This document shows, piece by piece, positions 8,838-28,954 of a stretch of DNA of 64,000 nt (its first letter is position 1; each line of letters starts with the position of its first letter). The position numbers and the translations under genes are program-made. The notes below the pieces were generated by a model. That model had not been told where the DNA came from. It worked only from the letters and a program-made list of their open reading frames with translations, and made no database searches. Origin of the DNA: Salinibacterium xinjiangense (GTDB taxonomy: Bacteria; Actinomycetota; Actinomycetes; Actinomycetales; Microbacteriaceae); NCBI RefSeq assembly GCF_014645015.1, contig NZ_BMLC01000001.1, forward strand, positions 434,001 to 498,000. Direction: 5' to 3'.

Positions 8838-9938
8838 CTAGAAGATAATGACTGGTTTGAGGGTCACGCCGCTGTCGCTATCAGCGAAGGCTTCGTTGAT
8901 GTCGGCGAAGTCATACTTCTTGACAAGCTTGTCAAACGGGAACAAGCCGGCGTTATAGAGCGAAATCAGCTGGGGAATGAACGTTTGCGGCACGGAGTCG
9001 CCCTCGATCACCATGCTGATCTTCAGCCCACTCAGCAGCAGGCTGCCGATATCGATCGGCGCTTCGGTGCCGGGCGCCGCCACGCCGACGAGGGCACCGT
9101 GACCAAGGATGCCGAGAGAGTTGGTCATCTGGGTGAAGACAGATTTGTTACCGGTCGTGTCGAGAGCGTAGTTCACCCCACCACCGGTGATCTCGCGAAT
9201 CCGCGCGACGGCGTCCTCGTTGCGGCTGTTGATGGTGTGGGTGGCGCCGAGTGTTTTGGCGAACTCGAGACGGCTGTCGACGATATCGATCGCGATGATC
9301 GTCGTAGCGTTAGCAAGGACGGCGGCGAGAAGGCCGGACAAACCCACAGCACCGGATCCGAAGATAGCGATGCTACTGCCGGCTTCCGGCCGGAGGACGT
9401 TGAGCACGGCCCCCGCCCCGGTCTGGATACCGCAACCAAGTGGGCCCAAGAGTTCCAACGGTGCGTCCGGAGCGACCTTGACGACACTGCGCTCATCGAC
9501 ATTGCTGACCGTGGCAAAGGATGACTGGCCGAAGAAATGGGAGGATACGGGCGTGCCGTCGTCGGCAGTGAACGCGGTCGAACCGTCGGGACGGGCCCCG
9601 CTGAAGTCGAGGTCGTAGAGGTGGATACAGTACGAAGGGTGTCCTGACACACAGGAGGAGCACACCCCGCAACTCGAGAAGCTGAGCACCACATGGTCGC
9701 CAACTTCGACGCTCGTCACGCCCTCGCCAATGGCCTCGACGATCCCGGCGCCTTCGTGGCCGAGCACGGCGGGCAGCGGAGTGGGATACACCTGATCGCG
9801 CACGACGGCATCGGTGTGGCAGACACCCACGGCGACCATGCGCACCTGAACCTCGGTGGCTCGTGGAGCGTCGAGCGTCAGCTCCCGGATCACGAGTGGC
9901 TCTCCCTTAGCGAGAGCGACAGCAGCAGTTACCTTCAT
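8838..9938 (-). CDS. Zinc-dependent alcohol dehydrogenase (aryl/benzyl-alcohol type)
   Basis: 366 residues of the medium-chain dehydrogenase superfamily. Catalytic zinc ligands are C40, H61 with E62, and a Cys near 169 (PLGCGIQTG); the structural zinc site is C90, C93, C96, C104. The NAD(P)-binding loop is GSGAVG in the second half. The pattern is closest to XylB/aryl-alcohol dehydrogenases, which oxidise primary alcohols to aldehydes with NAD; the exact substrate is not readable. ATG 9938 is preceded by AAGGAG at good spacing. The gene stands alone between decayed DNA and a dead insertion sequence, so it may be cargo of an older element. Confidence 0.85.
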   Translation of the reverse strand: MKVTAAVALAKGEPLVIRELTLDAPRATEVQVRMVAVGVCHTDAVVRDQVYPTPLPAVLGHEGAGIVEAIGEGVTSVEVGDHVVLSFSSCGVCSSCVSGHPSYCIHLYDLDFSGARPDGSTAFTADDGTPVSSHFFGQSSFATVSNVDERSVVKVAPDAPLELLGPLGCGIQTGAGAVLNVLRPEAGSSIAIFGSGAVGLSGLLAAVLANATTIIAIDIVDSRLEFAKTLGATHTINSRNEDAVARIREITGGGVNYALDTTGNKSVFTQMTNSLGILGHGALVGVAAPGTEAPIDIGSLLLSGLKISMVIEGDSVPQTFIPQLISLYNAGLFPFDKLVKKYDFADINEAFADSDSGVTLKPVIIF

Positions 9939-10058
9939 TGCGTCTCCTTAGATCCGCGACGTCGCCGCCGCAATAACCCCTTATCAGTCTGCGCTCGTTT
10001 TCCAGATAAGTCCAAGGTTGAGCCTCTTCACCCCGTCCGGACGCAACCCCCGTCGGGA

Positions 10059-10087
10059 GGTGACGTCCCCTTGAGTGGTGTGCTTTC
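10059..10087 (+). repeat. Left terminal inverted repeat of the IS256-family element
   Basis: 29 bp starting GGTGACGTCCCC and ending GTGTGCTTTC. It matches the right end in inverse orientation with four mismatches. Transposase would cut at its outer edge. Confidence 0.88.
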
Positions 10088-10090
10088 GCT

Positions 10091-11361
10091 TCACCGTGTG
10101 GGGTCAGTGGTTTTAGCTTGGGCGGCGATCAATTTGTGCAGCAGTGTCACCTCCTCGATGACCACGACGGGTTTGATTATGGGCTTCAGCTCGAGCATCA
10201 ACGACTCGGAGAAGTAGCGTCGGTCGCCGGCGTCCCATTCGTCGTGCTGTTAAACCAGAGCAGCGCCCGCGAGTCGCAGCAGTGCGGCTGGGTTGGGGAA
10301 AACACCAACGACGTCGGTGCGACGTTTGATCTGCTTATTGACCCGTTCCAACGGGTTCGTGGACCAGATCTGTCGCCAGTGTCGCTGCGGGAACGGCGCG
10401 AATGAGAGCAAGTCATGCTCGGCATCAGCAAGCATCGCTGCAACTTTCGGGTGAGAGCGGGCCAGCATGGTGGTCACCTCGCCGAACTGTTTGTGAATGT
10501 GCTCCACGTCGGGTTGGGCGAAGACTGTGCGGATAATCGACGCGACCATGTCCTGGCTGGCTTTTGGCACGACGGAGAGCACGTTGCGCATGAAGTGGAC
10601 CCGGCACCGCTGCCAGGACGCGCCCTGAAACACCGTTCCGATCGCTTTCTTCAACCCAGAGTGCGCATCAGACATGACGAGCTTCACCCCGTTCAGGCCG
10701 CGGACTTTCAGCGAGCGGAGGAACTCGGTCCAGAACCCTTCGTTCTCGGTGTCTCCGACATCGAAGCCGAGGACCTCCCGGCGCCCGTCTGCGGCAACAC
10801 CGACCGCGACGACGATCGCTTGGGAGACGATCCGGTGGTTCACCAGGGCTTTGCAGTAGGTCGCGTCGAGGAACACATACGGGTAATCCAACGCTGACAG
10901 TGACCGATCGCGGAACTGGGCGACTTCCGCATTCAGGCCAGCGCAGATGCGTGAGACTTCAGACTTTGAGATTCCGGTATCAGCACCCAAAGCCTTGACG
11001 AGGTCATCGACCTTTCTCGTCGACACGCCATGCAAATACGCTTCCATTACGACTGCGAACAGAGCTTGATCAATCCGTCGACGCCGTTCGAGCAACGCCG
11101 GGAAGAATGTCCCCGCGCGCAGCTTTGGGATCTTCAGATCCAACTCACCCGCCGTGGTCGTCAGCACCCGTGGACGAGTGCCATTTCGATGGGTGGTGCG
11201 CTCTGCAGAACGTTCGAACGGGCTGGCGCCGATGAACACGGTCGCTTCCGCAGCGACAGTCCTTGATAGAGCGCCTCAGTCGCGACCCTGATTCGGTCGG
11301 TGACGTCGGTGAGTTTGAGTTGGGCAAGAAGGTCGAGCAGGGCAGACTGGTCTAAAGCCAT
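10091..11361 (-). pseudogene. IS256-family transposase, frameshift plus premature stop
   Basis: The N-terminus (MALDQSALLDLLAQLKLTDV) starts at 11361 in one frame and runs to about 11250, where loss of one base moves the reading to the frame of EATVFIGASPFERSAERT. The main body has the mutator-type core: DATY (first catalytic Asp), VMSDAHSGLKKAIG (second Asp), WQRCRVHFMRNV, and the C-terminal catalytic Glu in WSTNPLERVNKQIKRR. After LLRLAGAALV a TAA stands where GAA is expected; the frame continues past it (QHDEWDAGDRRYFSES) to a natural stop at 10091. Two independent lesions make self-mobilisation impossible. Confidence 0.9.
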
Positions 11362-14622: not shown

Positions 14623-14655
14623 GAAAGCCCCGGAACCGTAATGGTTCCGGGGCTG
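14623..14655 (-). terminator. Rho-independent-type hairpin beyond the left attachment site
   Basis: Stem AGCCCCGGAACC / GGTTCCGGGGCT with a five-base loop, followed on the minus strand by TTTCC. It closely resembles the hairpin after the intact tRNA-Ala at 28842. It is therefore likely the chromosome's original terminator for that tRNA, separated from it by the island. Confidence 0.7.
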
Positions 14656-14659
14656 TTCT

Positions 14660-14696
14660 GTGGATCCAAGGGGATTCGAACCCCTGACCCCCTGCA
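14660..14696 (-). other. Left attachment repeat (attL), tRNA-Ala 3' fragment
   Basis: 37 bp identical to 28880-28916, covering the T-arm, the variable region and part of the anticodon stem of tRNA-Ala. The next bases on both sides differ from the right copy, which sets the limits of the crossover region. It is not a functional tRNA because the D-arm and acceptor 5' half are absent. Confidence 0.9.
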
Positions 14697-14921
14697 AGTT
14701 CATGCCAAAGGAAATCGACTGCCGTCCGACCTTGAATTGCACCAGAATCCCCGGATTGGTGCCCATGTGGGCCCCAGCTCCGCTCCCGTTGTTCACGACG
14801 GGATGGCAACATCATCCGGTGATCCGCGATGTTTATGGACACTAAATGGACCAATTTCCTAGTCGGTCCTGTACCCAGTCCCGATCGCTAGGGTTTGCGG
14901 CAAGTCGAGGAGACTCCGTGA

Positions 14922-15470
14922 TCAGATCCTGTGGGAGCGGAGTAGCTCGACGCGCGCGGCAGAGAGCCCACCAGCTCGCGTCAGCTCCGACTGCGTGGCT
15001 CGCCACACAGACAAAGACCGCTCAGGCGAATCCCTCGAACGTCGCGAGGGGCGGCGCCCCTCGCGCTCGACGAAGTCGACGTACTCCCAGAGCCGCTGTT
15101 CCCACTTCTCGTCCAACGGTGCCCAGGAAAATCCAGGAATGAGTTCGAGCCGATCCGCGCGGTAGTCGCTCAGTGTCTGCTCACTGCGTCGCTGGTACTG
15201 CACCCAGTTAGCTAGCCGATCTTCGTCCGTGGAGCGGAACTCAGCCGGTCGCCGTGAATTCGCGTGAGGCCAGCGATTCTCGCGCTCGATGAATGCTTCG
15301 AGCTCATGGACCGTCGAAATCCACCTTCCCTGCCGAATCTTAAGGATTTCGGTGGATGGGCGTGATTCAGCTAGGAAGAGTTGGATCGAGTCGTCCCACC
15401 TCGACGGTTCGTGATCGTTGATCTGCCTCCACTTTTCGAAAAGCGCAGTGAGTGTTGTCGACGAAGACAT
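14922..15470 (-). CDS. Helicase-associated-domain protein
   Basis: 182 residues. Two copies of a Trp/Arg-rich helical unit are visible (about 50-115, ending in SDYRADRLELIPGFSW, and about 122-180, with RLWEYVDFVEREGRRP then LSVWRATQSEL). They match the HA (helicase associated) domain often found in repeats at the ends of bacterial helicases and in stand-alone DNA-binding proteins. No helicase motifs are present. ATG 15470 follows AAGGAG at five bases. It is the first gene inside attL and diverges from the hipBA pair. Binding of DNA is a family-based inference; the role in the island is unknown. Confidence 0.65.
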   Translation of the reverse strand: MSSSTTLTALFEKWRQINDHEPSRWDDSIQLFLAESRPSTEILKIRQGRWISTVHELEAFIERENRWPHANSRRPAEFRSTDEDRLANWVQYQRRSEQTLSDYRADRLELIPGFSWAPLDEKWEQRLWEYVDFVEREGRRPSRRSRDSPERSLSVWRATQSELTRAGGLSAARVELLRSHRI

Positions 15471-15599
15471 GTGGCTCCTTTCGGAGCCCGAGACCTTCGA
15501 ACTCCGAGAGGGCTGTGCGCGGCACTACACGGGCACGCTCACGATGAGCCAGTCTCTTTGTGGCAATTGGGCGAAACGACGCCCATCTCTGCCATTTAG

Positions 15600-15641
15600 A
15601 AAGTTTATTTGGCTTGAAGTCCTTCAAATAAAGTAAACTTT
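15600..15641. promoter_or_regulatory. Palindromic operator/promoter of the hipBA pair
   Basis: An interrupted palindrome centred between 15620 and 15621: AAAGTTTA (15600-15607) pairs with TAAACTTT (15634-15641), and TTGAA (15614-15618) with TTCAA (15623-15627). It ends five bases before the ATG of the Xre-type gene, the usual site of autoregulation by HipB-like antitoxins. It is distinctly AT-rich compared with the surroundings. Confidence 0.65.
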
Positions 15642-15645
15642 GCAT

Positions 15646-15960
15646 ATGAAGCGATTGCGTCACTATTCACCCGAAACTCGCCGCGCACTCTCAGTGCTCG
15701 GCAACTTGATCGCTGCCGAGCGGCGGTCTCAGCGGCGTACGCAAAGTGATCTCGCGGAGCGGGTAGGCATCTCACTTCCCACGTTGTCCAAGATTGAGCG
15801 CGGTTCGGCCGGTTCAGAGATCGGATCGGTCTTCGAGCTCGCGACAATTCTCGGGATCCGATTGTTTCCGGATGTTGATGATGTGCGCCTTGATCAGCGT
15901 CTCGCACTCTCCCCGTCGTCAGTGAGGACGACCCCTCGTCCCGTGGATGATGAGTTCTGA
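15646..15960 (+). CDS. Xre-family antitoxin (HipB-like)
   Basis: 104 residues. A helix-turn-helix of the Cro/C1 (Xre) type occupies about 18-75: LIAAERRSQRRTQSDLAERV, then GISLPTLSKIERG and VFELATILGI. The start ATG 15646 lies directly behind the palindrome, with a TTG two codons upstream as alternative. By family it binds the operator and neutralises the HipA-type kinase encoded next. Its stop shares one base with the hipA start (TGATG), so the two are translationally coupled. A short acidic tail (PVDDEF) closes the protein. Confidence 0.85.
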   Translation: MKRLRHYSPETRRALSVLGNLIAAERRSQRRTQSDLAERVGISLPTLSKIERGSAGSEIGSVFELATILGIRLFPDVDDVRLDQRLALSPSSVRTTPRPVDDEF

Positions 15961-17213
15961 TGTCTGACCACGCATTCGTGTGGGTGTGGTTGCCCGGAGC
16001 AACTGATCCTGTGGTGGCTGGGCGCGTGCAACAGCAAGTGCAGGCTGGACGCCCGGCAAGTTACTCGTTCACTTATGGACGCTCCTATTTGCAGAATCCG
16101 AGAGCTGTACCTTTGTTGGCCGAGTTGCCGATGGAACAAGGTGTTCAGATGCCTGCGTCGGGGTTGGAGATCGCTGGGGTCTTGCTTGACGCAACACCTG
16201 ACAGTTGGGGTCGGCGAGTCATCAATGAGCGTGTACTTGGCGCGCGCACGCGTCAGTCAGAGCCTGCGGATCTCGATCTGCTCACCTACATGCTTCGGTC
16301 GGGTTCTGATCGCATTGGAGCACTCGACTTTCAGACATCAGCCACCGAATACATCGCACGCAATGCCGAGCATCAAGCGACATTGGACGAGCTGATGGAT
16401 GCCGCCGCACTGATCGAAAAGGGAGAGGCGCTATCGCCGGCCATTGCGGACGCTCTCTTCCTAGGCAGCTCGGTTGGAGGCGCACGACCGAAGGCCTCCC
16501 TGATCGACGGCGGACGAAGTCTCATCGCGAAGTTCCCGAGTACCACCGACCAGTACCCCATCGTCAAATACGAGGGCGTCGCGATGGAACTCGCACGACG
16601 CGTGGGAATTACCACCGCCAAGACGGAGGTGCGTCACACAGCCGGGCGTGACGTGCTGATCGTCGAGCGCTTCGACCGACCTGGCGACGGAACTCGAATG
16701 ATGCAGGTGTCCGCGCTCACCATCCTCGGAGTGAATCCTGAGACCGCCCGCGGCGCCACGAGTTACCCCGCAGTCGCCGACAAGATTCGTTCTTCCTTTA
16801 CCCAACCCAGAGCAGCGCTAAGCGAATTATTCGCCAGGATCGTTTTCAACGTGATTGTGCGCAACACGGACGATCACGCACGAAACACGGCCGCATTCTG
16901 GGACGGCCACGCACTCACGCTCACGCCCGCATACGACATCACACCCTCACACGGCCGACGCGACTCCATCGCATCCCACCCCATGGCCATCGACGTTGAT
17001 GGAGACAACCAATCACTGCTTGCCGTGTGCATCGACGCGGCAGCGGCTTACCTGCTGTCCAACGAGGAAGCGCAAGAGATCGTCGACCGCCAAGTCGACC
17101 TCGTCCGCGAAGAATGGAGGGACGCAGCCGACACCGCTCGACTCACAACACGAGAGCGGGACGCGCTCTGGGAGACGTCAATTCTCAACCCAGCGATCTT
17201 CTGGGAGAGGTAG
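15960..17213 (+). CDS. hipA: HipA-like Ser/Thr kinase toxin
   Basis: 417 residues with the full HipA signature: GSSVGGARPK (169-178, the loop carrying the autophosphorylated Ser), ATP-binding Lys in IAKFP (K191), VERFDR (235-240), catalytic RNTDDHARN (301-309) and the metal-binding AYD (324-326). HipA kinases phosphorylate translation factors, classically glutamyl-tRNA synthetase, and slow growth. The N-terminal subdomain (RVQQQVQAGRPASYSFTYGR, then PDSWGRRV) is of the HipA N-terminal type. Coupled to the Xre gene upstream, it forms a type II toxin-antitoxin module that may stabilise the island or act in phage defence. All catalytic residues are present. Confidence 0.9.
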   Translation: MSDHAFVWVWLPGATDPVVAGRVQQQVQAGRPASYSFTYGRSYLQNPRAVPLLAELPMEQGVQMPASGLEIAGVLLDATPDSWGRRVINERVLGARTRQSEPADLDLLTYMLRSGSDRIGALDFQTSATEYIARNAEHQATLDELMDAAALIEKGEALSPAIADALFLGSSVGGARPKASLIDGGRSLIAKFPSTTDQYPIVKYEGVAMELARRVGITTAKTEVRHTAGRDVLIVERFDRPGDGTRMMQVSALTILGVNPETARGATSYPAVADKIRSSFTQPRAALSELFARIVFNVIVRNTDDHARNTAAFWDGHALTLTPAYDITPSHGRRDSIASHPMAIDVDGDNQSLLAVCIDAAAAYLLSNEEAQEIVDRQVDLVREEWRDAADTARLTTRERDALWETSILNPAIFWER

Positions 17214-17406
17214 CAGAGGAAGAACTCCAGGACTGTTGTCTCGGAATCGTTGACCATGATCCTAAGCACAGAAAATATGGCCAAGACGCCCCGACGATTT
17301 CTTGCGTTTTGCACTCCCCACGAGAAGCTGCGCCACGTGAATTGATCCAATCGCGTGGGAGCTGACGGCCCGGATGCGCAGCGCGTTACTGGAGTGCAGT
17401 TCCTTA

Positions 17407-17712
17407 CTAAGGAGCAGGTGACAGGCGCACCTTGGCGCCGGCCTTCTCGGCGGTCTCCTTGTTGGCGCCGTTGAGAACGACACCGGGAGCGTTGCCAACG
17501 AGAGCCTTAGCCGCGCCAAGACCGAGGCTCACGAGGGTACGCATCTCCTTAATGACGTGAATCTTTTTCTCACCAACACTCTCAAGAACGACGTCAAAGG
17601 AATCCTTCTCCTCGATCTCATCGGCTGGAGCCGTGAGGCTACCAGCGGCTGCGGCGGCCAGGCCGGCACCATTTGGGTCGGGCGAGCTACCGGCAGCAGA
17701 AACCCTAGTCAC
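17407..17712 (-). CDS. Orphan ribosomal protein L7/L12-type C-terminal domain
   Basis: 101 residues. Residues about 37-98 match the L7/L12 C-terminal domain ([20 protein letters not shown], then [13 protein letters not shown] and [11 protein letters not shown]); residues 15-30 look like its Ala-rich hinge. The N-terminal dimerisation domain that anchors L7/L12 to L10 is missing, and about six residues before the last strand are deleted. The GTG start (17712) overlaps the hsdR stop (GTGA), so it would be translated right after HsdR. It may be a truncated rplL copy captured by the island, or a domain reused as a decoy or regulator. It is not the functional ribosomal gene. Confidence 0.7.
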
Positions 17713-20700
17713 GAAGCCGCGGCCGCGATGGTAATGCGCTCCAAAAGGTCCAAAAGCTCAGCGACCTTGGATGCTCCAAACAACCCTTCGGGCCCCGTCG
17801 GCGCGTAGTTCGTGAAGGGCGCCTCGTACAGCAAACCCGGTTCGACGATGCCGCGCTGCGTGAGCTGCTCAACGATCAAGGCCACGAACGACTGCTGATT
17901 AGCGGTGAGCGTGGCTCCGGCGGTGAACTCTGAGAGTGCATCCGTAGCTGCGATTCGGTCGAGGCCCACCAGTGAGCGCACAAACAACCCGAGCCCGTGT
18001 GCGGCGGCGGCGGCATCCCGCACCTGGGTGGGGTCGAGTCCGTTCTCGATCATGATGTTCTCAAGCTGTTCGAGGTCGCCAGGCGCCAGGGGCAACCCTT
18101 TGCGTAGGCGCGAGACCGCGAGGTCGCTTTCATGCTCGCGCAGGAACGCCACAGCCTTCTCCCGAAAGCGCGCCCTGTCGACACCCACCGCGACCTTCTG
18201 GATCTCGATGATCGCGGACTCCCCCGCGGTGTCCTTGAAATCGGTGTAGACGATCGCGCGGGTAGACGAGTCGATGAGCTTGACTAGTTCGCGTAGGCGG
18301 ATGCGGGCAAGTTCGAGTATCGGCACTGTGATATCCACCCACCAGTCCTCGCCGGCGACCGCCTCGATCAGTTGGATGTTGTTATCGATCGCCGGGATGC
18401 CGCGCTGCCCGCCGAGGGCATTCGCTATCGCGCGCATCCGTTCCTTCGCGGCCGCGAAACCGGGGTCCGCGGCGAGGACGCCGAGTTGGGCGCGAAGTGC
18501 GAGTAGGTCGAACCGTTTGGCGAGTTCGTTGGTGTCTTGCACGTCGGTCGCGGAGGGGAGGTCGGCGAGCGTTCCCGCCTCCGTGAAGTCGTCGCCAGCA
18601 ATCGTGAGCCAGCTCTCGCCTCGGGCGAACCGCTCAACTGCGCGTCGGGAGCGCCTGACGAGGAAGTTGTCGAGGCTCATCCCCGCGACCCGTTCGTGCA
18701 TGCGGGCGGCGACGCCTTCACGCAATGCTGTGAGCTCCGCCTCGTCCGGGGCTGCGTCCATTGCGGCGAGCAACTGGAGCCTCGACGTGAACAATCGCGA
18801 GCGCAGCGATGGCATCGTGCCGACGCCTGCCGACGGCAGGTCTTGATTGAAGTACTCGATATTCTGACAAACGTCGAAGATCACGAAGTCTTGCTTGGGC
18901 TCTCCTGGCCCGTACAGATCCGGTCGCAACCGTGTGCCGCGGCCGACCATCTGCCAGTACTTGGTCTTGGAATGCACGGCCTTGAAAAAGACGAGGTTCA
19001 CTACTTCAGGCACGTCGATGCCCGTGTCGAGCATGTCGACCGAGATCGCGATGTGCGGTGCCGAATCGGGCTTCGAGAAGTCGTCGATGAGGCTTTGAGA
19101 GTACTTCTGCTGATGCGTGATCACACGGCCGAACTCGCCTTTGTACTGCGGGTAGTTCTCGTTGAACCGCTCTGCGATGAACTCCGCGTGTTTGTTGTTC
19201 TTTGCGAAAATGATGGTCTTGCCGAGGCGGTCGCCACCCGCGACGGTGCGTCCCTCGGTCATGAGGGTCTCCAGCACAGTGTCAACAGTGTCCTTGTTGA
19301 ACAGCCAGGTGTTCATGGCGCTGGAGTCGACCTCGTCCGGGATGTCGCCGTCGTCCCAGTCGAGCAGGTCCCACTCTTCCTTTTCGCTCTCGCTGAGTTC
19401 GGCGTAGCGGATACCCTCGCGCACGAATTTCGTCGCGACCGAGCGCCCCACGGGCGGCACCAAGTAGCCTTCCGCGATCGCGTCGGTGAGGTCGTAGGAG
19501 TCGGTGGGCACGCCATCCTCAAGGTTGAAGAGCCCGTAGGTGTTGTGGTCGATCTCGTTCTTCGGGGTGGCCGTCAGGCCGACCAGCAGGGAATCGAAGT
19601 AGTCGAAGATTGCACCATACTTTTGGTACACCGAGCGATGCGCTTCGTCGATGATTACAAGGTCGAAGGAGCCTGGTCCAAAGCGCCGTAGCCCATCTCC
19701 CCCGTTGTTTATCAGCCCCATCATCGTCGGGTAGGTCGAGACGTAAACGCGTCCTTCGGAATCCTTGTCGGTCACGAGGTTTACTGGCGCCGAGTCGGGC
19801 AATTGCTGTTTGAACGCGTTCGTGGCCTGGTTGACGAGAGCAATGCGATCGGCCAGAAACAGGATTCGCTTGGCCCAGTTCGCGCGAATCAGCACGTCCG
19901 CTAGCGCGATCACCGTGCGCGTCTTGCCCGAGCCCGTGGCCATGACTAGCAGTGCCTTGCGCTCCTTGTTCTCGAACGCCTCCGCGACCTTGGCGATCGC
20001 GCGCCGCTGGTAATAACGCTCGACGATCAACGGGTTGACCTCGACGCTCGCGAGCGGCTTTCGGGTAGCGCGACGCTGAATGAGCAGCTCAAGTTGATCG
20101 CGGGTGAAGAAGCCATCAATCCGACGCGGCGGGTAGCTCGCGTCATCCCAGAGGAAATGCTCGTAGCCGTTGGTATAGAAAATTAGCGGTCGCTGGCCGT
20201 ACACGGCCTCCAGCCGATCGGCGTAGAGCTTCGCCTGCTGTTGGCCGGCTATCGCATCCTTGCGGGTGCGTTTGGCCTCGACCAGCCCGAGCGGCAAACC
20301 GTTGTCGCCCCAGAGCACGTAGTCGACGAAGCCATTGCCGTCCGCGGAGTTGTTGGGCATGCCGAAAACCGGAAACTCAAGATCGCGTGCCTCGTCGAGC
20401 TTCCACCCGGCTTCGTGCAGGAGCACGTCGATGAAGAGATCGCGGGTTTCGTCCTCGCGGTAGTCGTGCGTGTCGGGCACAGTGGCGTTGGCTGCCTTCG
20501 CGAGCGCCACCTGTTCGCGCAATTGCGCAATTTCAGTTTCGAGCTCGTCATTTTTGTCGCGCGCCGCGGCAAGAGCTGCGTCCGCAGCGGCAAGCTCATC
20601 CCCGAGCTTGACGAGCTGGGCCATGGTTTTGACGGCGACACCAGCGGCAGGCTTAGGCAAGGCAGCCGCGTTGAAGGGCATACCCGGGGCGGGTCGTTCT

Positions 20701-21083
20701 TCGGGTGTGCGCGCGTACCGTGTTGCCACCCACACCATCACCTGGAACAGCTCACGTACGACAGGGAGGCTGTCGGTTGGCCTCAGTGGAGCGCTTCGAT
20801 GCACGGCGTTGTTGCCCTGTTTGCGGATTAGGTCGAGTTTGGTGTGAATGCCGGGCCCAACCAGCCGCTTGAAACTGGCCTCGTAGGTGAGGGCGGCGAG
20901 GTCGTCCTTGTATGGGCGTTGGAGGGTCGCATCCGCGTCGTAAAGCCAATTGACGATCAGCTCGATCGCTCGGCGTGCGTAGAACACCGACGAGCGTGGA
21001 TCCCCGTTGACGTAGTGCTCGGCTCGGCGGGCCTCTTCGGCGATCTGTGGCCAGCCGGCGCGCAAGAAATCGAAGTTGCTCAC
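17709..21083 (-). CDS. hsdR: Type I restriction enzyme, R subunit
   Basis: 1,124 residues from GTG 21083 (GAAGGGA upstream). The N-terminal part looks like DUF4145 ([20 protein letters not shown]), followed by a short coiled coil and the HsdR nuclease domain with an acidic residue in GFVDYVLW and the VEAKRT E-x-K motif. The translocase has ATGSGKT (Walker A, near 387), IIDEAHRS (Walker B), LTATPK (motif III) and [10 protein letters not shown] (motif VI). The C-terminal third fits the EcoEI-type R-subunit tail. It would cleave unmodified DNA with HsdM/HsdS. hsdM and hsdS lie 2.5 kb away on the same strand, separated by mrr and two opposite-strand genes. No disruption is seen. Confidence 0.93.
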
Positions 21084-21253
21084 AAGATCCCTTCACGCGG
21101 CCTGCGCCCACAATATCGCTCGGATACGGCGCTCCGGCCACATTCATGACGGGAAGTCATCAAATGTCGTTGGTCACCGATGGACTGTCCGACTTGCCTT
21201 CGGCAGGTTCTGCGGCTCACCCAGCGCAGGCAAACAGCAAGCAAGGAGACATC

Positions 21254-22105
21254 ATGTCTGGAAACACACACCCTGAGCCGCTCGCACCGGCCGAACCGAC
21301 ACCCACTCTGGTCGACATCGCCCCGTCGAAGAGGCCGAGCCGTTTGAGTCTCGTCGCATTGATCGTCGGGATCGTGGCTTTCGTCTGCGCCATTATTCCC
21401 GGCCTCAGCTTCTTCGCGTTCTTACCCGCGTTCGCAGCACTCGGCCTGGGCATCGCTGCCCTCGCAATGAAGGCACCGGGCCGCGGCAAGGCCATTGCCG
21501 GCCTCGCCCTTGGCCCGGTCGCACTGACGAGCGCGATCATCGTGAGCGTTGCGGCGATTGCCGGGGGCGTCGCACCAACGGTCGACCAGGCCAAACCGCA
21601 GCCTCTCGTCGAGACATCGACACCGGCTGCACCCGCCACCCAGACGCCCACGCCGCAGGCGGCCGAGAAGGAGGGCACGCGCTCCAATCCCGCACCCGCC
21701 GGTAGCGCGGTCGAAATCAGCGACAACAGTGGCGCGATCTGGCAGGTGCAGATCGGTGCGACCAACCTCAACGCCGGTGACGTTGTTGCGGCGGAGAACC
21801 AGTTCAACGACGCAGCCGACGCTGGCTTCCAGTACATCTTGGTGCCGGTGACGTATACCTACGTCGGAACTGAGAGCGGCACGCCCTGGCTCGATGTCAC
21901 GATCGAGTTCGTGTCGGCGGCCGGCACGACGCACACCAACGCCTACGTGGTGATTCCAAACAACCACAACGACATCAACGAGATGTACACCGGTGCAAGC
22001 GCCACCGGCAACGTCGTCATCATGGCTCCAAGCGCGGACATCGAAAAGGGCGCATTCACGATCTCGACGCTCTTCGGCAGCCCGTACTTCGTGAAGGTCG
22101 TCTAG
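21254..22105 (+). CDS. Membrane-anchored DUF4352-like protein
   Basis: 283 residues from ATG 21254, chosen because AAGGAG stands seven bases upstream. A Pro-rich cytoplasmic leader is followed by three hydrophobic segments (about 33-50, 52-71, 80-105), as in DUF4190-type membrane domains. Then comes a Thr/Pro/Ala linker and an extracellular domain (about 145-283, starting GSAVEISDNSGAIWQVQIG) that resembles the strand-rich DUF4352 fold. It lies on the plus strand between hsdR and mrr inside the restriction locus, with an inverted-repeat hairpin right after its stop. No enzymatic residues are apparent. Being cargo in a restriction locus makes a defence role possible, but that is inference. Confidence 0.7.
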   Translation: MSGNTHPEPLAPAEPTPTLVDIAPSKRPSRLSLVALIVGIVAFVCAIIPGLSFFAFLPAFAALGLGIAALAMKAPGRGKAIAGLALGPVALTSAIIVSVAAIAGGVAPTVDQAKPQPLVETSTPAAPATQTPTPQAAEKEGTRSNPAPAGSAVEISDNSGAIWQVQIGATNLNAGDVVAAENQFNDAADAGFQYILVPVTYTYVGTESGTPWLDVTIEFVSAAGTTHTNAYVVIPNNHNDINEMYTGASATGNVVIMAPSADIEKGAFTISTLFGSPYFVKVV

Positions 22106-22126
22106 TAGAGCTCGTCTAGCAAGTGG

Positions 22127-22164
22127 GGATGCCGCGGCTCGCGACTGCGTGGCCCGCGGCATCC
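22127..22164 (+). terminator. Hairpin after the DUF4352-like gene
   Basis: Perfect 11-bp stem GGATGCCGCGG / CCGCGGCATCC around a 16-base loop, beginning 21 bases after the stop codon. No T-run follows, so efficiency as a terminator is uncertain. Confidence 0.5.
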
Positions 22165-22242
22165 ATATTCGATAAGCGATGTACGCCCGCGCCACGACGA
22201 AGACCTATCGTAGGAATTATCAATTTGAGCAGAGGACTCGAC

Positions 22243-23562
22243 GTGACCGAAAACAATGCGCTCGTGCCGGTGTGGACACTCGCCACTGAGGATGTCAGTA
22301 TGCCGGACGTGTTGGGTGATATGGGCGATGAAGGCATGACCTCGACCCGACTCGCAGAACTGAGAACAGTCCTGGCGACACTCGCGGACTCCCCCATCGC
22401 AACCCTCGAAGCACATTCACTATCAGAACGTCGGGATCGGCAAGGCGGCATCGCACTCCACGCGGCCAGCCCGCTTGCCCAGCAACTGTCGCGGCTCGTG
22501 GCCGATACAGCGAAATCAGCGCCCCGCTCGCTGAACGTCGCTGATACCGGAGAAACGCTGTATCGAATGGTGGTTCCGGCGAAGGTCGCCGCACAGGTCG
22601 GCAAAGGCTTGGTCAAGTCAGTGCAATCGAAGACTGTCCCCGGAGGTGTTTACAGTGCGATGCGCAACTCTAAGGCGTTCGCTGCGAACGCCGCGTTCGT
22701 CCCAGTTAGCGGCAAGCTCGCTGCGACGGGCGCCGCAACGGGCTCGGCCGCCACCGCAGGTGTGGCTGTGGCCGGTGCCGGCGTGATGACGGTCGCTGCT
22801 CCCCTGGTGCTCATGGCCGTCGCGATCGGGATGAGCGCCTACGCGGATCAACAACGCCAAAAAGCGATCGAACGGATCACAGACCTCTTGGAGCAGTTGC
22901 ACGACGACAAACTGGAGAAGGAACGTAGTGAGCTCGACGGATGTCGTGACGCGATCGAGAAGGCGACATCGATCCTTCTCGATCAGGGAAAGATCGGGTT
23001 CTCTCTGGGACTGGATTCCTCATCGTTCGCGATTAGCACAGCCATCGAGCAAACCAGGCGTCGACTTGCGAAGTGGCAAGCTGCGCTTGAGAAATTACCC
23101 GACGGGCCGGTTGATCTGGGTGAACTAAAAAAATCCTTCCTCGGTATTGACGATGACGGTGGAGCGTTCCGTGCACATCTTGAGCTTGCGCGGCTCGCCA
23201 TTGCTCTTCGGCGCCGGGTACTTGTTCTCCAGGCTGTTGAGCACGCCCAGCTTGAGGGCACAGGGAACCCATTCAAGAAGTTTCTTGGAGCGCTGCGAGA
23301 CGACGAGCGTCGTATCGACGAGCTGGAATCCGGCATCGGGTCGGTGCTGTTTCAACTGTCGACCCTCGAATTGAAGCGTCCCGGCGGTCTTCGGAGCCCA
23401 GTGTTCACTCAGGGCGAGGTCGGCGCGCTGCTCAAAGCCTCGTATCGTATTCGCGCTTTGGGTGACGACCTCAACAGCACGGTCAACCAGGGGGACGTCG
23501 CAATTGAGATCGAACGACGCCGCGACGGATCGCTAGTGGTGTTTCCCGCGGTCCAGGCCTAG
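22243..23562 (+). CDS. Unknown protein with hydrophobic Ala/Gly helix pair and coiled coil
   Basis: 439 residues from GTG 22243 (AGAGGA about seven bases upstream); the frame is open to 22123 but the extra residues look non-coding. The N-terminal 130 residues are mixed alpha. A Gly/Ala-rich hydrophobic stretch (about 160-205: AATGAATGSAATAGVAVAGA, then VMTVAAPLVLMAVAIGMSAY) is long enough for two membrane helices. The rest is charged helix with coiled-coil character (ITDLLEQLHDDKLEKERSEL, then IEQTRRRLAKWQAALEKL). No known family was recognised. A hydrophobic hairpin set in a long helical protein recalls alpha-helical pore formers, so a membrane-acting effector is conceivable. That is speculation based on shape only. 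Confidence 0.65.
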   Translation: MTENNALVPVWTLATEDVSMPDVLGDMGDEGMTSTRLAELRTVLATLADSPIATLEAHSLSERRDRQGGIALHAASPLAQQLSRLVADTAKSAPRSLNVADTGETLYRMVVPAKVAAQVGKGLVKSVQSKTVPGGVYSAMRNSKAFAANAAFVPVSGKLAATGAATGSAATAGVAVAGAGVMTVAAPLVLMAVAIGMSAYADQQRQKAIERITDLLEQLHDDKLEKERSELDGCRDAIEKATSILLDQGKIGFSLGLDSSSFAISTAIEQTRRRLAKWQAALEKLPDGPVDLGELKKSFLGIDDDGGAFRAHLELARLAIALRRRVLVLQAVEHAQLEGTGNPFKKFLGALRDDERRIDELESGIGSVLFQLSTLELKRPGGLRSPVFTQGEVGALLKASYRIRALGDDLNSTVNQGDVAIEIERRRDGSLVVFPAVQA

Positions 23563-23577
23563 ATCGCTCCAGCCGCG

Positions 23578-24507
23578 CTACTCGTCGCTGAAGAAATCCT
23601 CGTCGATCTTCACGATCTCGACCCGGCGGGCGACCTGCACGCCGACGCGATGTTTGATCATCAGCTCGGTGAGTTTTAGCCCGTCAACGAGCGCGATGTC
23701 CTGGGGCACGCGCTCCGCGGCATCCGCCGCTTCGCCGCTGTATTTGCTCGTCGTGAAGAAGACTCCAACGTTCGCACCCCGTGTCGCTAGCGCCCCAACG
23801 AAAGCTTGAATCGCTGGGCGTCCCACGACGTTGTCTTCCGCGTATCGCTTGGCCTGGACGTAGATCTGGCTCAGGCCCAGCTCATCGCGGTCGATCTTGC
23901 CGTCGAGTCCCCCGTCGCCGGAACCCTTGAGCTGCTTCATCTCGCCCTCGGTGCCGTAGCCCATCTTCACAAGCACGCTACGCACCACTTGCTCGAAGAA
24001 CAGAGGGTCCGTGCCGCGCAGACGTTCGAGCAGCTTCGACTTGACGTCATCCTCGATCGCTTCAATGCCCGACTCGATCAGGTCTTGCGGGGTCTGGTCG
24101 CCCACTGACGCCAACGACGGAATTGCGGTTGGGCTCGATGCCTTGCGAGTTGGGATGTACTCGGTGTACGCCGGTATCATCTCCAGATCGCCCACGGTGA
24201 TTAACACCGGATGCCGCGCCAAGAGGTCCCGTCCGGTATCGGTAATCACGAACGTGCCCCTACTCGGGGACGACAGCGCTTTGGCTCGTCGGAGCGCAGA
24301 TGTCGCCCACCCAATCCGGTTGAGCGAGCGGGGCTGACCGGAATCGAGTTGCTCGTTTCGCTCCGGCTCGGTGAGGCCCGCGATGTCCATCGTCGCCTTC
24401 TCCATGTCGCGCTTGACATGAACAGCCCCGTCGGAAAGCGACTCAAGGACCGGCCGCATGAAGGTGTGCCACGTGTTGATGGTCGAGACGCCAGTGTCGT
24501 TCGTCAT
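23578..24507 (-). CDS. mrr: Mrr-type restriction endonuclease
   Basis: 309 residues from ATG 24507 (GAGGAG five bases upstream), overlapping the hsdS stop (ATGA). Residues 1-115 have the winged-helix Mrr N-terminal look (TWHTFMRPVLESLSDG, then GTFVITDTGRDLLA). The catalytic domain contains FFEQVVRSVLVKMGYG, D202 in GGLDGKIDRD and the Q218-x-K220 motif in YVQAKRY, followed by GRPAIQAFVGAL. That is the D...QxK form of the PD-(D/E)xK nuclease site. Mrr enzymes cut methylated DNA, so pairing it with a type I system protects against both unmodified and foreign-modified DNA. It is the last gene of the hsdM-hsdS-mrr run. Confidence 0.88.
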   Translation of the reverse strand: MTNDTGVSTINTWHTFMRPVLESLSDGAVHVKRDMEKATMDIAGLTEPERNEQLDSGQPRSLNRIGWATSALRRAKALSSPSRGTFVITDTGRDLLARHPVLITVGDLEMIPAYTEYIPTRKASSPTAIPSLASVGDQTPQDLIESGIEAIEDDVKSKLLERLRGTDPLFFEQVVRSVLVKMGYGTEGEMKQLKGSGDGGLDGKIDRDELGLSQIYVQAKRYAEDNVVGRPAIQAFVGALATRGANVGVFFTTSKYSGEAADAAERVPQDIALVDGLKLTELMIKHRVGVQVARRVEIVKIDEDFFSDE

Positions 24508-25679
24508 AGTTCTCCTCGGAAGGCGCGGTGTTGGAGGGAGGCGAAGAGTTCGTCTAGGCGGGCGAGGTGGCTCGCGTGCACGTCCGCCAAGTCCTCGATC
24601 TCCTGAGCCTGGCGAACGTATGCATGTTGAAGGTCGATCGGTGGAACCGGAATCCGCACCGCACGCAGCTTCTCCCCGGTCAGATGAGAGATTGTTGCGG
24701 ACGAAATGCTGTCCGCGAGTACTCCGGTGGTGACCAACCATTTCATAGTGCGGACGAAAACCTCGGGCAACATGACCGAACGGTTCAGGCGCACGCGATG
24801 CAGGGCCTTCTGGAAGTACACGTCCTCCAACTGTCCCCTCCAGACGGCCGAACGCCCGGGTTGGCCGCCCTCACAGACAAGTACGTCGCCGGGAGCCAGA
24901 GCAAACTCGACTTGGTCCTTGGGCGAAAAATCCATCTCATTGAGATCTTCAAGCTCGAAACTCAACCATTGGACATTGGCATTTCGCAAGTAGCGCTTGC
25001 GTTCAAGCCCAGTTTGTCGACTAGCGTCGAGCATCTTTCCTAGGCGAGTATTGGCGATCTCGTCGATGCGGGCTAGGGGGTGTTCCCCCGAACTTTCCAG
25101 AAACCCCTCGAACAGAGCCTCAGCAAGAAGATTCACCCTTGAGAGTGCTGTGCGCCGGCTATCGAGCTCCAAGTCCAGGGCATCGAGGATGGATGCGATT
25201 CGGCGCTGCTCGGGGAGGGGTGGGAGGGGGACGTCGAGGTTGTCAAGATCTTCACCACGAAGATTATTGATGTTCGCCCCAGCGGCGAGACTAGAAACAC
25301 GTGCTCTGTAGGACGGCGTTCGGAGAAAGTGAGCCAAGTAGTTCGGGCTGACCAATTTACCTGGCCGCAGGACTTTGCAGAAAGCGCCGAAGGTTGCGTC
25401 CACGTTGTCGCGCACAAGCACCGCTCGACCCACAACCTTCAGGCTTCCGCTGGATGCTGTGACCAACAGATCATGTTTCCGCAGGAACTGTCGATCGAGA
25501 ATCTTCTCACGAGAAAGATAAAGTACAGACTTTAGATCAAGGCCGTCTTCAGTGACGTTCGAAGCTGTCATCACAGGCACGAGTCCGGGCGCAGTCTCCG
25601 GGACAGTGTCATTCTTCGCGAAAGTTACCCCTCGAATCTGAGCGGAAACCTCGCCGAGCTTTACTGTCGGCCAGGTCAC
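24504..25679 (-). CDS. hsdS: Type I restriction-modification specificity subunit
   Basis: 391 residues with two target-recognition domains, each followed by a conserved helical region. The first TRD spans about 1-160 and ends in the typical PLPPLPEQRRIASILDALD; the second spans about 200-350 and ends VPPIDLQHAYVRQAQEIEDL. HsdS directs the methylase and the R subunit to a bipartite site, which cannot be predicted here. The GTG start overlaps the hsdM stop (GTGA) and the stop overlaps mrr (ATGA). Both halves look intact, with no inverted repeats or recombinase nearby that would suggest phase-variable shuffling. Confidence 0.9.
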   Translation of the reverse strand: MTWPTVKLGEVSAQIRGVTFAKNDTVPETAPGLVPVMTASNVTEDGLDLKSVLYLSREKILDRQFLRKHDLLVTASSGSLKVVGRAVLVRDNVDATFGAFCKVLRPGKLVSPNYLAHFLRTPSYRARVSSLAAGANINNLRGEDLDNLDVPLPPLPEQRRIASILDALDLELDSRRTALSRVNLLAEALFEGFLESSGEHPLARIDEIANTRLGKMLDASRQTGLERKRYLRNANVQWLSFELEDLNEMDFSPKDQVEFALAPGDVLVCEGGQPGRSAVWRGQLEDVYFQKALHRVRLNRSVMLPEVFVRTMKWLVTTGVLADSISSATISHLTGEKLRAVRIPVPPIDLQHAYVRQAQEIEDLADVHASHLARLDELFASLQHRAFRGEL

Positions 25680-27187
25680 GCGAGGGACCTTGCAAGGGTG
25701 GCCGTCGCATCCTGGATCTCGCGCTCCAGGACCATCAGCTCGGCGAGAATCACGGCGGGGTCGCGGTGCTCGACCTCCTCGTGCTCAACCACCTTGTAGC
25801 GGTTGAGGGAGAGGTCGTAGTTTTGGGCGACGATCTCGGACTTGGGGACCAGGAAGGATTGCGCGGTTCTGGGGCGATCGAACTCGGGCCAGGTTTCGAC
25901 TCGGCTGCTTTGCGGCCTGCTCAACCAGCGGGCTAGGACATCGGGGAGGTCGTTCTGCTCGGTGGGGGTGCGCTTGTCGTCGAGGGTAAAGCCGTCGGCT
26001 TGCACGTCGTAGAACCAGACTTGGTCGGTGCCGCCCGAGCTGGTCTTCGTGAAGAACAGGATCGCGGTCGACACACCCGTGTACGGCTTGAAGGTCCCGC
26101 TCGGCAGCTTGACCACGGCATCCAGCTTGTGATCCTCCACCAGCATCTTGCGCAGCGCCTTGTGAGCGGTGGATGACCCGAACAGGACGCCGTCCGGGAC
26201 GATCACTGCCGCGCGCCCGCCGTTCTTGAGCAGGCGAATCATCAGCGCGAGAAAGAGCAGCTCGGTTTTCTTCGTCTTGACGATCGTGAGCAGATCCTTT
26301 GCGGCCGTTTCATAGTCGAGGCTCCCAGCGAACGGTGGATTGGCGAGCACCAGCGTGTAGCTGCCCTCGGCGTCCGTGTGCTCCTCGGCTAATGAGTCTC
26401 GTCGCTGGATGGTCGGGTTCTCCACGCCGTGAAGCTGCATGTTCATGCTGCCGATGCGCGACATCGACGCGTCGGAGTCGAAGCCCGTGAACGCGAGCCG
26501 GTTGAAGTGGTCGCGGCTTGCGGCATCCGCCCAGATCTCGGGGTGATGGTCGCGCAGGTACTCGGATGCCGCCACCAGGAAGCCGGCTGTACCCGCCGCC
26601 GGGTCGATGATGAGGTCCTGCGGGGTCGGCGCCGTCATGTCGACCATTAGCTGGATGATGTGGCGCGACGTGCGGAACTGGCCGTTCTGACCCGAGGTGG
26701 CTAGCTTGCCGAGCATGTACTCGTAGATGTCGCCCTTGGTATCGCGATCCTCCATCGGGATGTCTTCGAGGAGGTCGACGACCTTGCTCAGCAGCGCCGG
26801 GGTCGGAATCGTAAAACGCGCGTCCTTCATGTTGGCCGCGAAACTCGATCCCACATCGCCCAGATTGCGGATGAACGGGAAGACGTTCTGGTCAATGACC
26901 TCGTACATCTCGGGAGCGGCGAAGTTCTTGAAGTGGCTCCAGCGCAGGTCGCTGTAGAGGCGCGGGCGGCGGCCGGTGTCATCCATGCCATCAGGGAAGA
27001 CCCGGTTCTCGATCAGCTTCCCTGTGGTGTTCGCCTTGTTCTCGGCGAGGGTGTGGAGCTCGTCAAGCCGCTTGATGAAGAGCAGGTAGGTGATCTGCTC
27101 GATCACCTCCATGGGATTGGCGATGCCGCCCGACCAAAAGGCGTTCCAAACCTTATCGACCTTGGACTTCAATTCGCCAGTTACCAA
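25676..27187 (-). CDS. hsdM: Type I restriction-modification DNA adenine methylase
   Basis: 503 residues from TTG 27187, chosen because CAGGAG lies eight bases upstream and the protein then begins LVTGELKSKVDKVWNAFW as in the family; an upstream extension to 27310 would lack support. The helical N-terminal domain (VIEQITYLLFIKRLDEL) precedes the SAM-binding motif DPAAGTAGFL and the N6-adenine catalytic motif NPPF in LANPPFAG. It methylates the target adenines and protects host DNA. It is the first gene of the minus-strand run and diverges from the integrase; their 5' ends are 271 bp apart. Confidence 0.93.
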   Translation of the reverse strand: MVTGELKSKVDKVWNAFWSGGIANPMEVIEQITYLLFIKRLDELHTLAENKANTTGKLIENRVFPDGMDDTGRRPRLYSDLRWSHFKNFAAPEMYEVIDQNVFPFIRNLGDVGSSFAANMKDARFTIPTPALLSKVVDLLEDIPMEDRDTKGDIYEYMLGKLATSGQNGQFRTSRHIIQLMVDMTAPTPQDLIIDPAAGTAGFLVAASEYLRDHHPEIWADAASRDHFNRLAFTGFDSDASMSRIGSMNMQLHGVENPTIQRRDSLAEEHTDAEGSYTLVLANPPFAGSLDYETAAKDLLTIVKTKKTELLFLALMIRLLKNGGRAAVIVPDGVLFGSSTAHKALRKMLVEDHKLDAVVKLPSGTFKPYTGVSTAILFFTKTSSGGTDQVWFYDVQADGFTLDDKRTPTEQNDLPDVLARWLSRPQSSRVETWPEFDRPRTAQSFLVPKSEIVAQNYDLSLNRYKVVEHEEVEHRDPAVILAELMVLEREIQDATATLARSLA

Positions 27188-27458
27188 CGGTGATGCTCCT
27201 GATTCGTGATTGATGCTCTGCTCGATTGTGTCAGAGGGCTGGTGCTTCACACTCCAAGCGCCGACGCAATGCGACCGAATCGGTAGCGAATTGAACCGGG
27301 GCTTTTGCACCCTTAGAGCGCCTCAAATGAGAGATCACAACTGGCCAGAATCGGCCCGCATAGACCAACTAGCCAACCGGTCAGGTGCGACTCAAAAACT
27401 CTTGACGCACCTTCACTACGGTCTCCCTCGCAGGGAGCCGTCACGAAAGGAATCTCTC

Positions 27459-28616
27459 ATGTCACGTCCCCGTCTCCCCATCGGCACTTGGGGCACGATC
27501 TCCAGTCACAAGGACCCCAGCGGCTCATGGCGATCAAGCGCCTACTTCCGCGACTTCAACGGAAGCAGCCGAAGGGTGCGCGCGAGCGGCCCTTCGGCGA
27601 GTGCTGCCGAACGGCACCTAACCGCGAAGCTCGTCGAGGGTGCACGGATCGGCAGCGGTGAGCTCAAGCCCACAACGCCGCTCGCCACTACTGCTGAGAT
27701 GTGGCTCGCCGAAGTTGAAGGAACCGTCGGCGATGGCACTCTTGACGAATACAAGCGCCTCGCTCGCAAACGGATCATCCCCGCCATCGGCGAGCTGATG
27801 CTCGGTGAGGTCACCGTCGGCGTAGTCGACCGGTTCCTGCGCGCCGAGTCGCTGCGAACGCCAGCACAGGCGCGCAACGTCAGGTCCGCTCTTCTCCACA
27901 TCATGGCCGTGGCCCTGCGCCACGACGCGATCCGGCTCAACCCCGTCCGCGAGTCCGCCCCTCTACCGAAGGTGCACAAGACGCCCGAGGCTCTCACGGA
28001 GACCGAGGTGGTGGAGCTGCGGGACATGGTCAGGCTACACCGCGCGGGACCGGGGAGGAGCGGGCCGCCCCCCGGCGTAGACCTGATGGACTTCGTCGAT
28101 CTCACCCTCGCCACCGGCACTCGAATCGGGGAAGCCCTTGGCCTCCGGTGGCAGGACATCAACCTCGATGTGGAGCCCGTCCTCGTCACGATCGCTGGAA
28201 CCCTCGTCGAGGCGACCGGCGTCCCCGTGCACTACAAAAACTCTCCGAAGACCGCGTCTGGATTTCGTACGCTGTCGCTGCCCGACCACGCCGCCGCGAT
28301 CCTCAAGCGGCGGCGTGCATCGGCGAAGAGTGAATGGGTGTTCGCGACCAAGGCCGGCGCCCCGCGCGCTCCGCAGAATATCCACCGGACCTTTCGGGAG
28401 ATCGTCAAGGATACGGAACTCCAGTGGGTCACACCGCACGTCCTCCGCAAGACGGTGGCCACCCGCATCGCCCGGCTCTTCGGCGATGAGGCGGCCGCGA
28501 AGCAGCTCGGACACTCCGGACCTGAGGTCACAAGGCGCCACTACATCCAGAAGGCGTCGATCGCACCAGACGTCAGCGAGACGCTGAGCCTGATGTTCCT
28601 GGAACCGATGAGCTAG
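27459..28616 (+). CDS. Tyrosine recombinase/integrase of the island
   Basis: 385 residues from ATG 27459, preceded by AAAGGA at eight bases; the frame is open further upstream, but that part overlaps the hsdM promoter region. It has an N-terminal arm-binding region, a SAM-like core-binding domain (about 75-160) and a catalytic domain with R222 (TGTRIGEALGL), K264 (NSPKTASGFR), H327 and R330 (PHVLRKT), H352 (LGHSG) and Tyr nucleophile Y362 (RRHYIQ). It would integrate and excise the island at the tRNA-Ala site about 260 bp downstream. No excisionase gene was recognised. All catalytic residues are present, so the island may still excise. Confidence 0.93.
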   Translation: MSRPRLPIGTWGTISSHKDPSGSWRSSAYFRDFNGSSRRVRASGPSASAAERHLTAKLVEGARIGSGELKPTTPLATTAEMWLAEVEGTVGDGTLDEYKRLARKRIIPAIGELMLGEVTVGVVDRFLRAESLRTPAQARNVRSALLHIMAVALRHDAIRLNPVRESAPLPKVHKTPEALTETEVVELRDMVRLHRAGPGRSGPPPGVDLMDFVDLTLATGTRIGEALGLRWQDINLDVEPVLVTIAGTLVEATGVPVHYKNSPKTASGFRTLSLPDHAAAILKRRRASAKSEWVFATKAGAPRAPQNIHRTFREIVKDTELQWVTPHVLRKTVATRIARLFGDEAAAKQLGHSGPEVTRRHYIQKASIAPDVSETLSLMFLEPMS

Positions 28617-28841
28617 ACCCGCCCGACACCTCAACCTGCACGGGGCGAGGCACTCATCGAGCGCTTCGCCCTGTGGGCGAGCATTGGGCCACAAACGGGC
28701 CAGATGAATCTAGGCATGGCATACCTACAACGAAATGCGTCCCCTATGTGAGCCTGCTCGACTCACACTGGCGCACGAATCGCGTTGGTTTATGACCTTT
28801 AATGGCCCAATTGCTTCAACGGGAGCCCGCTCCGGGCAAGG

Positions 28842-28877
28842 AAAAAGCCCCGGAATCGTGACGATTCCGGGGCTTTC
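28842..28877 (-). terminator. Rho-independent terminator of tRNA-Ala
   Basis: Immediately after the tRNA 3' end on the minus strand: stem AGCCCCGGAATCG / CGATTCCGGGGCT with a three-base loop, followed by TTTTTCC. This copy is supplied by the island; its chromosomal counterpart is at 14623-14655. Confidence 0.85.
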
Positions 28878-28954
28878 TGGTGGATCCAAGGGGATTCGAA
28901 CCCCTGACCCCCTGCATGCCATGCAGGTGCGCTACCGGGCTGCGCCATGGACCC
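28878..28954 (-). tRNA. tRNA-Ala (anticodon GGC)
   Basis: 77 nt including an encoded CCA. Acceptor GGGTCCA pairs with TGGATCC (one G-T pair). The D-arm is GCGC...GCGC, the anticodon arm CCTGC-ATGGCAT-GCAGG with anticodon GGC reading GCC/GCU, and the T-arm AGGGG-TTCGAAT-CCCCT. Its 3' end faces the island and serves as the integration target; the island restores the 3' end so the gene stays complete. A terminator follows directly. Confidence 0.95.
28880..28916 (-). other. Right attachment repeat (attR) within tRNA-Ala
   Basis: 37 bp identical to 14660-14696, running from the second base of the CCA end through the T-arm into the anticodon stem. Strand exchange by the integrase at 27459-28616 would occur in this segment. 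Confidence 0.9.

Follow-up and report, generated by a model that had tools for sequence, protein, structure and literature searches.

What are two plus-strand genes doing in the middle of a type I restriction locus? In the window, the whole 64,000-nucleotide stretch of Salinibacterium xinjiangense DNA analysed here, P0001 and P0002 lie between hsdR and an mrr-type gene and interrupt four restriction genes that are all on the minus strand (Table 1). This arrangement, described in an initial annotation of the sequence, was confirmed: both genes are open reading frames (ORFs), PADLOC recognised HsdR, HsdS, HsdM and Mrr, and hsdR, hsdM and hsdS are uninterrupted ORFs on one strand, as in a type I restriction-modification (R-M) locus. 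The GTG start of P0002 matches the annotated starts of both full-length plasmid homologs. The spacing of 137 bp and the hairpin between the two genes were likewise reproduced, the fold having a predicted energy of -31.4 kcal/mol (z -4.7; none of 200 shuffled sequences was equally stable). As the hairpin has no T-run, it can be called only a putative terminator, and a search for a shared promoter found no sigma-70-like site within 20900-23700. Our best explanation sees P0002 as an actinobacterial defence-island gene that works by itself and moves horizontally, neither a type I subunit nor one half of a pair with P0001; taken as a whole, with the mechanism set out below, we put this forward tentatively, as an account that falls a little short of probable.

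Table 1. Features of the restriction locus and of the island that carries it (positions in the window)
Feature	Position	Strand	Remarks
Transposase-like ORF	10250-11239	-	IS256/Mutator type by eye
Island	14624-28916		14.2 kb; direct repeat at both ends
Direct repeat, distal copy	14624-14696	.	att-like, tRNA 3' part; 89% identical to proximal copy
HipB/HipA-like pair	15640-17213	+	helix-turn-helix and HipA-type proteins by eye
hsdR, type I restriction subunit	17709-21083	-	PADLOC REase_I, 1.8e-164
P0001 (gene 1)	21254-22105	+	283 aa; ATG start; good Shine-Dalgarno by eye
G+C-rich hairpin, 11-bp stem	22127-22164 (whole fold 22122-22169)	+	between P0001 and P0002
P0002 (gene 2)	22243-23562	+	439 aa; GTG start; candidate stand-alone defence-island protein
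Strongly apolar stretch of P0002	22750-22848	+	residues 170-202
mrr-type restriction gene	23578-24741 (longest ORF)	-	PADLOC mREase_IV, 1.1e-77; likely start near 24507 (read by eye)
hsdS, type I specificity subunit	24504-25679	-	PADLOC, 7.6e-60
hsdM, type I methyltransferase	25676-27310 (longest ORF)	-	PADLOC, 1.3e-182
Tyrosine-recombinase-type integrase ORF	27210-28616	+	function by eye; true start probably near 27459
Direct repeat, proximal copy	28844-28916	.	overlaps 3' half of tRNA gene
tRNA gene, island end	28878-28954	-	right flank conserved in genus relatives

P0002 belongs to a rare family. Matches were found in six of 398 genomes of the taxonomic family and in eight of 396 of the order (profile A1), and profile A2 found 14 of 394 genomes in the class and four of 296 in the phylum; the genome of the window is included in every count, and the counts overlap in some genomes. 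A further match in the Burkholderiales (L025; 29% identity over 57 residues) overlaps a longer ORF on the opposite strand and was set aside as chance. Full-length relatives number 16 and share 39-73% identity with P0002; outside this set are three fragments (L028, L033 and L070), a copy broken by stops (L032) and the distant members L044-L047 and L071-L074. Pfam, NCBIfam and PHROGs yielded nothing better than E 0.1 for P0002, the best sub-threshold matches being TTRAP in Pfam (0.41) and a PHROG (0.11), with none in NCBIfam. When 25 members of the family were compared with Pfam, the matches were scattered (Med9 in two members; Ferritin at 2.8e-4, a SpoU-like family, DUF7269 and DUF4407 in one each), and we attribute them to chance similarity arising from helical sequence. 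No enzyme family was recognised in Pfam or NCBIfam, nor in Pfam for the 25 members. Our literature search found no published description of the family, which does not prove that none exists. We conclude that the P0002 family is unnamed, and that it is sparse but taxonomically broad within the Actinomycetota.

The neighbourhoods of these homologs point to a role in defence. A restriction or defence gene lies within 10 kb of 15 of the 16 full-length homologs, with strong evidence at 13 loci and modest evidence at two. The kind of neighbour differs from locus to locus, and includes type I, II and III R-M, DISARM-like, Hma, Septu/Mza, IetAS and Dpd genes. The strong cases comprise an annotated BsuBI/PstI restriction endonuclease (L026), HmaA/HmaB (L027; PADLOC, E=0), a type I methyltransferase (L029; PADLOC, 1e-274), DrmD (7e-177) with a type III methyltransferase and endonuclease (L030; PADLOC), PtuA (7e-109) with MzaB/MzaC (L031; PADLOC), a type III methyltransferase (L041; 2e-128), IetS (8e-35) and IetA (1e-74; L042), a type II methyltransferase (L043; 2e-127), DrmA (L064; 7e-201), DrmMI (L065; 1e-56), DrmMI or a IIG enzyme (L066; 2e-61), DrmA at L067 (one of three DrmA members, assigned via gene clusters) and DpdE (L068; 8e-181). 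The modest cases are a type IV endonuclease (L063; 3e-11) and PDC-S48 (L069; 8e-20). Neighbours scanned singly were chosen by eye, and a single PADLOC match near a homolog does not show a complete system. A common DISARM-like arrangement is found at L064, L065 and L067, and the type III genes of L030 recur at L041; allowing for this, the 16 loci represent about 13 independent cases. L062 is the exception among the full-length homologs, lacking a defence neighbour that convinces; in its protein (9310-10554), roughly the first 30 residues fail to align. A defence neighbour was also confirmed at four of nine distant or fragmentary loci (L044, L045, L046 and L073), a count in which L047, L071 and L072 lay outside the PADLOC scan and L070 and L074 gave no defence match in the single protein scanned at each. 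At L030 (5322-5558) and L041 (8899-9579) we also observed members of one small protein family, next to close P0002 relatives that both adjoin type III R-M genes.

To set these neighbourhoods against a matched background, a single scripted rule was used to select genes near 13 P0002 homologs, with a minimum ORF length of 170 aa and a distance of up to 4.3 kb from the homolog; control proteins were selected in like manner from loci 50 kb away in the same genomes. The 82 picked proteins matched 129 PADLOC families at E<=1e-20; the 88 of 91 control proteins scanned, three having been dropped for length and control locus L096 being unrepresented, matched 11. P0002 homologs are thus enriched for defence genes over the matched background, although 129 to 11 overstates the gene ratio because families rather than proteins were counted and one helicase or methylase matches many models. 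The control matches include PglW, MkoA, mad6, PD-T4-6 and a GlgB-type model, and the control scan reached about 5 kb, as against the 10 kb used for the 15 of 16 neighbour count. If systems are assumed to span 6 kb and genomes 3 to 9 Mb, an estimated 2-5% of random 20-kb stretches overlap a defence system. Even at a background of 30%, 15 of 16 has a probability of 1.7e-7 and 12 of 14 one of 2.5e-5, figures that ignore the choice of neighbours by eye. The suggestion of the initial annotation that an accessory gene nested here may be a separate defence is supported for P0002, whose family recurs beside restriction and defence genes across genera and families at a level far above that of the control. 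From this gene neighbourhood we infer an anti-phage activity for P0002.

The same survey argues against P0002 being a subunit of type I R-M, an idea we rejected because its relatives range beyond hsd loci: type I genes were found at two of the P0002-homolog loci (L029 and L073), and the other loci adjoin other systems. Nor does P0002 travel with a fixed companion. Across the 26 homolog loci and the window's island, no gene family other than that of P0002 was represented among the picked genes at more than four loci, and this lack of a recurring partner is what is looked for in a single-gene system.

P0002 also appears to move between hosts. Its identity to the copies in two genomes that share only the class is 74% and 71%, and the housekeeping comparison, ProA, gives 58% for both; in two genomes of the same family ProA is instead the more similar, at 75% and 71%, with P0002 at 67% and 64%. 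For the remaining six of ten genomes in the comparison, identities lie between these cases, at 59-68% for P0002 and 53-62% for ProA. Since the two sets of identities are discordant, vertical descent does not fit. Five plasmid records matched P0002, two of them carrying it over most of its length and a third as a fragment, and the window's copy sits on an island bounded by a repeat that overlaps a tRNA gene; two further queries built from P0002 subfamilies found nothing in plasmids. Comparison of the sequences thus suggests that P0002 is horizontally mobile.

How P0002 might act is suggested by its build. Residues 170-202 are strongly apolar, as is the corresponding stretch in the six close relatives tested, and have an Ala/Gly-rich lead-in of variable length. 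P187, near the centre of the segment, is kept in 24 of 25 aligned members, and P154, L246, D247 and F309 are invariant in all 25. In four distant members the segment is mildly apolar (L038 and L039, about 1.7) or below threshold (L037), so that a buried helix is possible. The predicted model has a 64-residue helix at residues 185-248 and further helices, at low confidence (pLDDT 58; residues 117-190 below 50). Of the Ala/Gly-rich hydrophobic hairpin in a long coiled coil that the initial annotation described, the apolar stretch and the helical build are thus reproduced, and the hairpin form is putative. A Foldseek search with this weak model gave no match at E<=0.001 among 270 PDB matches, and a PDB profile search returned mostly coiled-coil or helical-bundle chains, the best being a spike HR1 fusion at 0.0051. 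A distant P0002 subfamily carries an extra N-terminal apolar helix (L071, 9247-10545; L072, 8264-9580; L073, 9160-10416; L074, 9193-10515), and its copy at L073 adjoins the hsdM of a type I locus. The conserved proline-centred apolar segment, together with the predicted long helix, suggests that P0002 may act at the membrane, so that the membrane-acting effector proposed in the initial annotation is plausible for this gene. On the mechanism we propose, P0002 would use this segment to lie at, or reach, the inner face of the cytoplasmic membrane; the segment would run into a long helical stalk, with the N- and C-terminal strands forming a head. The head or stalk might sense phage or foreign-DNA activity, upon which the apolar segment would be freed or would oligomerise, perturbing the membrane and halting the infected cell. 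P0002 could in this way serve as a back-up to neighbouring restriction systems, acting on invaders that get past them, and P0001 would be an envelope protein that was captured at this site as a passenger.

This account leaves P0001 outside the defence system, contrary to the two-gene system that the initial annotation had envisaged, with P0002 as the effector and P0001 as its sensor or immunity partner. That the genes share a strand, lie 137 bp apart and are both nested between hsdR and mrr would suit such a pair. P0001 was described as a three-helix protein with a DUF4352-like domain, and the predicted structure (pLDDT 71) does contain three helices (residues 30-47, 52-71 and 77-109) and a beta-rich C-terminal domain; Pfam, however, gave no DUF4352 match, so that this label is an assumed likeness. 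P0001 resembles envelope proteins of the DUF4190/DUF4352 type in having apolar helices followed by a beta-rich domain, and differs from them in that it falls below every Pfam cut-off (DUF4190, E 0.069) and leaves DUF4352 unmatched. Its matches are widespread at E<=0.001: of the family's 398 genomes, 201 have one, against six for P0002; many are confined to the apolar N-terminal part, and the best are full length with 38-54% identity. The 14 best of these relatives were fetched with their flanks, and the homolog was identified in 13 of them (not in L082). By eye, the neighbours at these 13 loci are mostly ordinary, and we did not find support for P0001 as a defence gene, although a weak link is possible: restriction- or repair-related ORFs lie nearby at three loci (L079, L085 and L087), the one at L079 being Vsr-like, and these count slightly in favour of the pair. 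The ORFs near the relatives at L085 (6290-7282) and L087 (4958-5998) resemble DNA methyltransferases by eye and stand beside a RecQ-like ORF. The distribution of the two genes speaks against the pair. None of the picked genes at the 26 P0002 loci is a P0001 homolog (E<=1e-4), and none of the six genomes in the family that match P0002 is among those of the 14 best listed P0001 relatives. Besides the window's own genome, three of the six have a weaker P0001 match (G011, G023 and G248), which in G023 and G248 is on another contig than P0002. With the strong hairpin separating the genes as well, we rejected the pairing as very unlikely; no support was found for P0001 as a sensor or immunity partner, and it is probably an unrelated passenger in this locus.

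Other readings keep P0002 at the centre and differ on what it does. It could be an accessory of restriction and other systems that attack DNA, tethering the adjoining nuclease machinery to the membrane or modulating it, and so positioning it or keeping it in check, for instance at the site of phage DNA entry. Among the confirmed neighbours, many modify or cut DNA, and the predicted long helices and apolar segment would suit an anchor, but these neighbours (type I, type III, Hma, Septu, IetAS, DISARM-like and others) have no common subunit. Moreover, of 16 upstream sequences examined by eye (L043 lay outside this set), at least 13 have a Shine-Dalgarno-like stretch ahead of the start, so its translation is not obviously coupled to that of a neighbour, and we regard an accessory role as unlikely. 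No common motif was seen by eye in these upstream sequences. P0002 might instead serve the mobile elements themselves, as an exclusion or maintenance protein of plasmids and islands whose link to defence is shared carriage. Three of the plasmid copies have mobF within about 6 kb, which makes a role in plasmid transfer possible, the window's copy is on an island, and one homolog has an integrase-like sequence just upstream (by eye). Against this, no transfer or replication gene recurs beyond a few loci, 50,697 phage records contained no match to P0002, and a pattern scan of viral contigs with A1 found no relative; we judge that this reading, too, has a small chance of being right. The sole PADLOC match of P0002, a marginal one to LeoBC (E 7e-4) in which residues 158-283 align with the C-terminal part of the profile, raises the further idea of a dynamin-related membrane protein that lacks its GTPase. 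All of this match falls in the apolar segment and long helix, a region whose composition can by itself produce a score, and with no dynamin GTPase domain matched in Pfam and no fold match for the weak model, we consider the idea extremely improbable. The bacterial dynamins LeoBC (PMC4159319) resemble P0002 weakly at the profile level, in its apolar and helical part, and differ in the GTPase domain, for which P0002 has no match.

Separate defences nested in type I loci are already known; P0002 is a new candidate of this kind, with an unnamed protein family. According to PMC11411939, TgvAB is a GmrSD-related restriction pair encoded by two genes within a type I R-M locus of Vibrio cholerae VPI-2, and these foreign genes nested in the hsd cluster are a defence of their own, independent of the restriction activity of HsdR. 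The likeness to P0002 is one of placement and not of protein family, since P0002 matches no nuclease family and lacks a fixed partner. The same paper attributes to Payne et al. 2024 the HEC genes, embedded defence candidates found by their position within known multi-gene systems (PMC11411939). P0002 differs from these in matching no PADLOC model except, weakly, LeoBC, and in that at the loci examined it adjoins most systems rather than sitting inside them. A family that stands beside many kinds of defence and has no PADLOC model, bar one marginal match, makes a strong candidate for a defence gene that has been overlooked. Existing catalogues of defences draw mainly on well-studied hosts. As P0002 is a single gene, the proposal is directly testable, and the build of the protein suggests an action other than DNA cutting. 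The broader claim, that P0002 founds a new single-gene antiviral family in which an infection-triggered, membrane-acting stalk moves from island to island as a back-up to whichever restriction system is resident, is one we regard as doubtful at present.

The whole locus is contained in the island, which has a 73-bp direct repeat at both ends, one copy of it at a tRNA gene, and which carries hsdRMS, mrr, the integrase ORF, P0001 and P0002. Six of the eight genus loci compared (L103-L108) align to the window at the tRNA and rightward, and past the 3' end of the tRNA these six have no blastn match to it. The island also holds a HipB/HipA-like pair with weak PADLOC matches, and a transposase-like ORF lies just outside it (Table 1).
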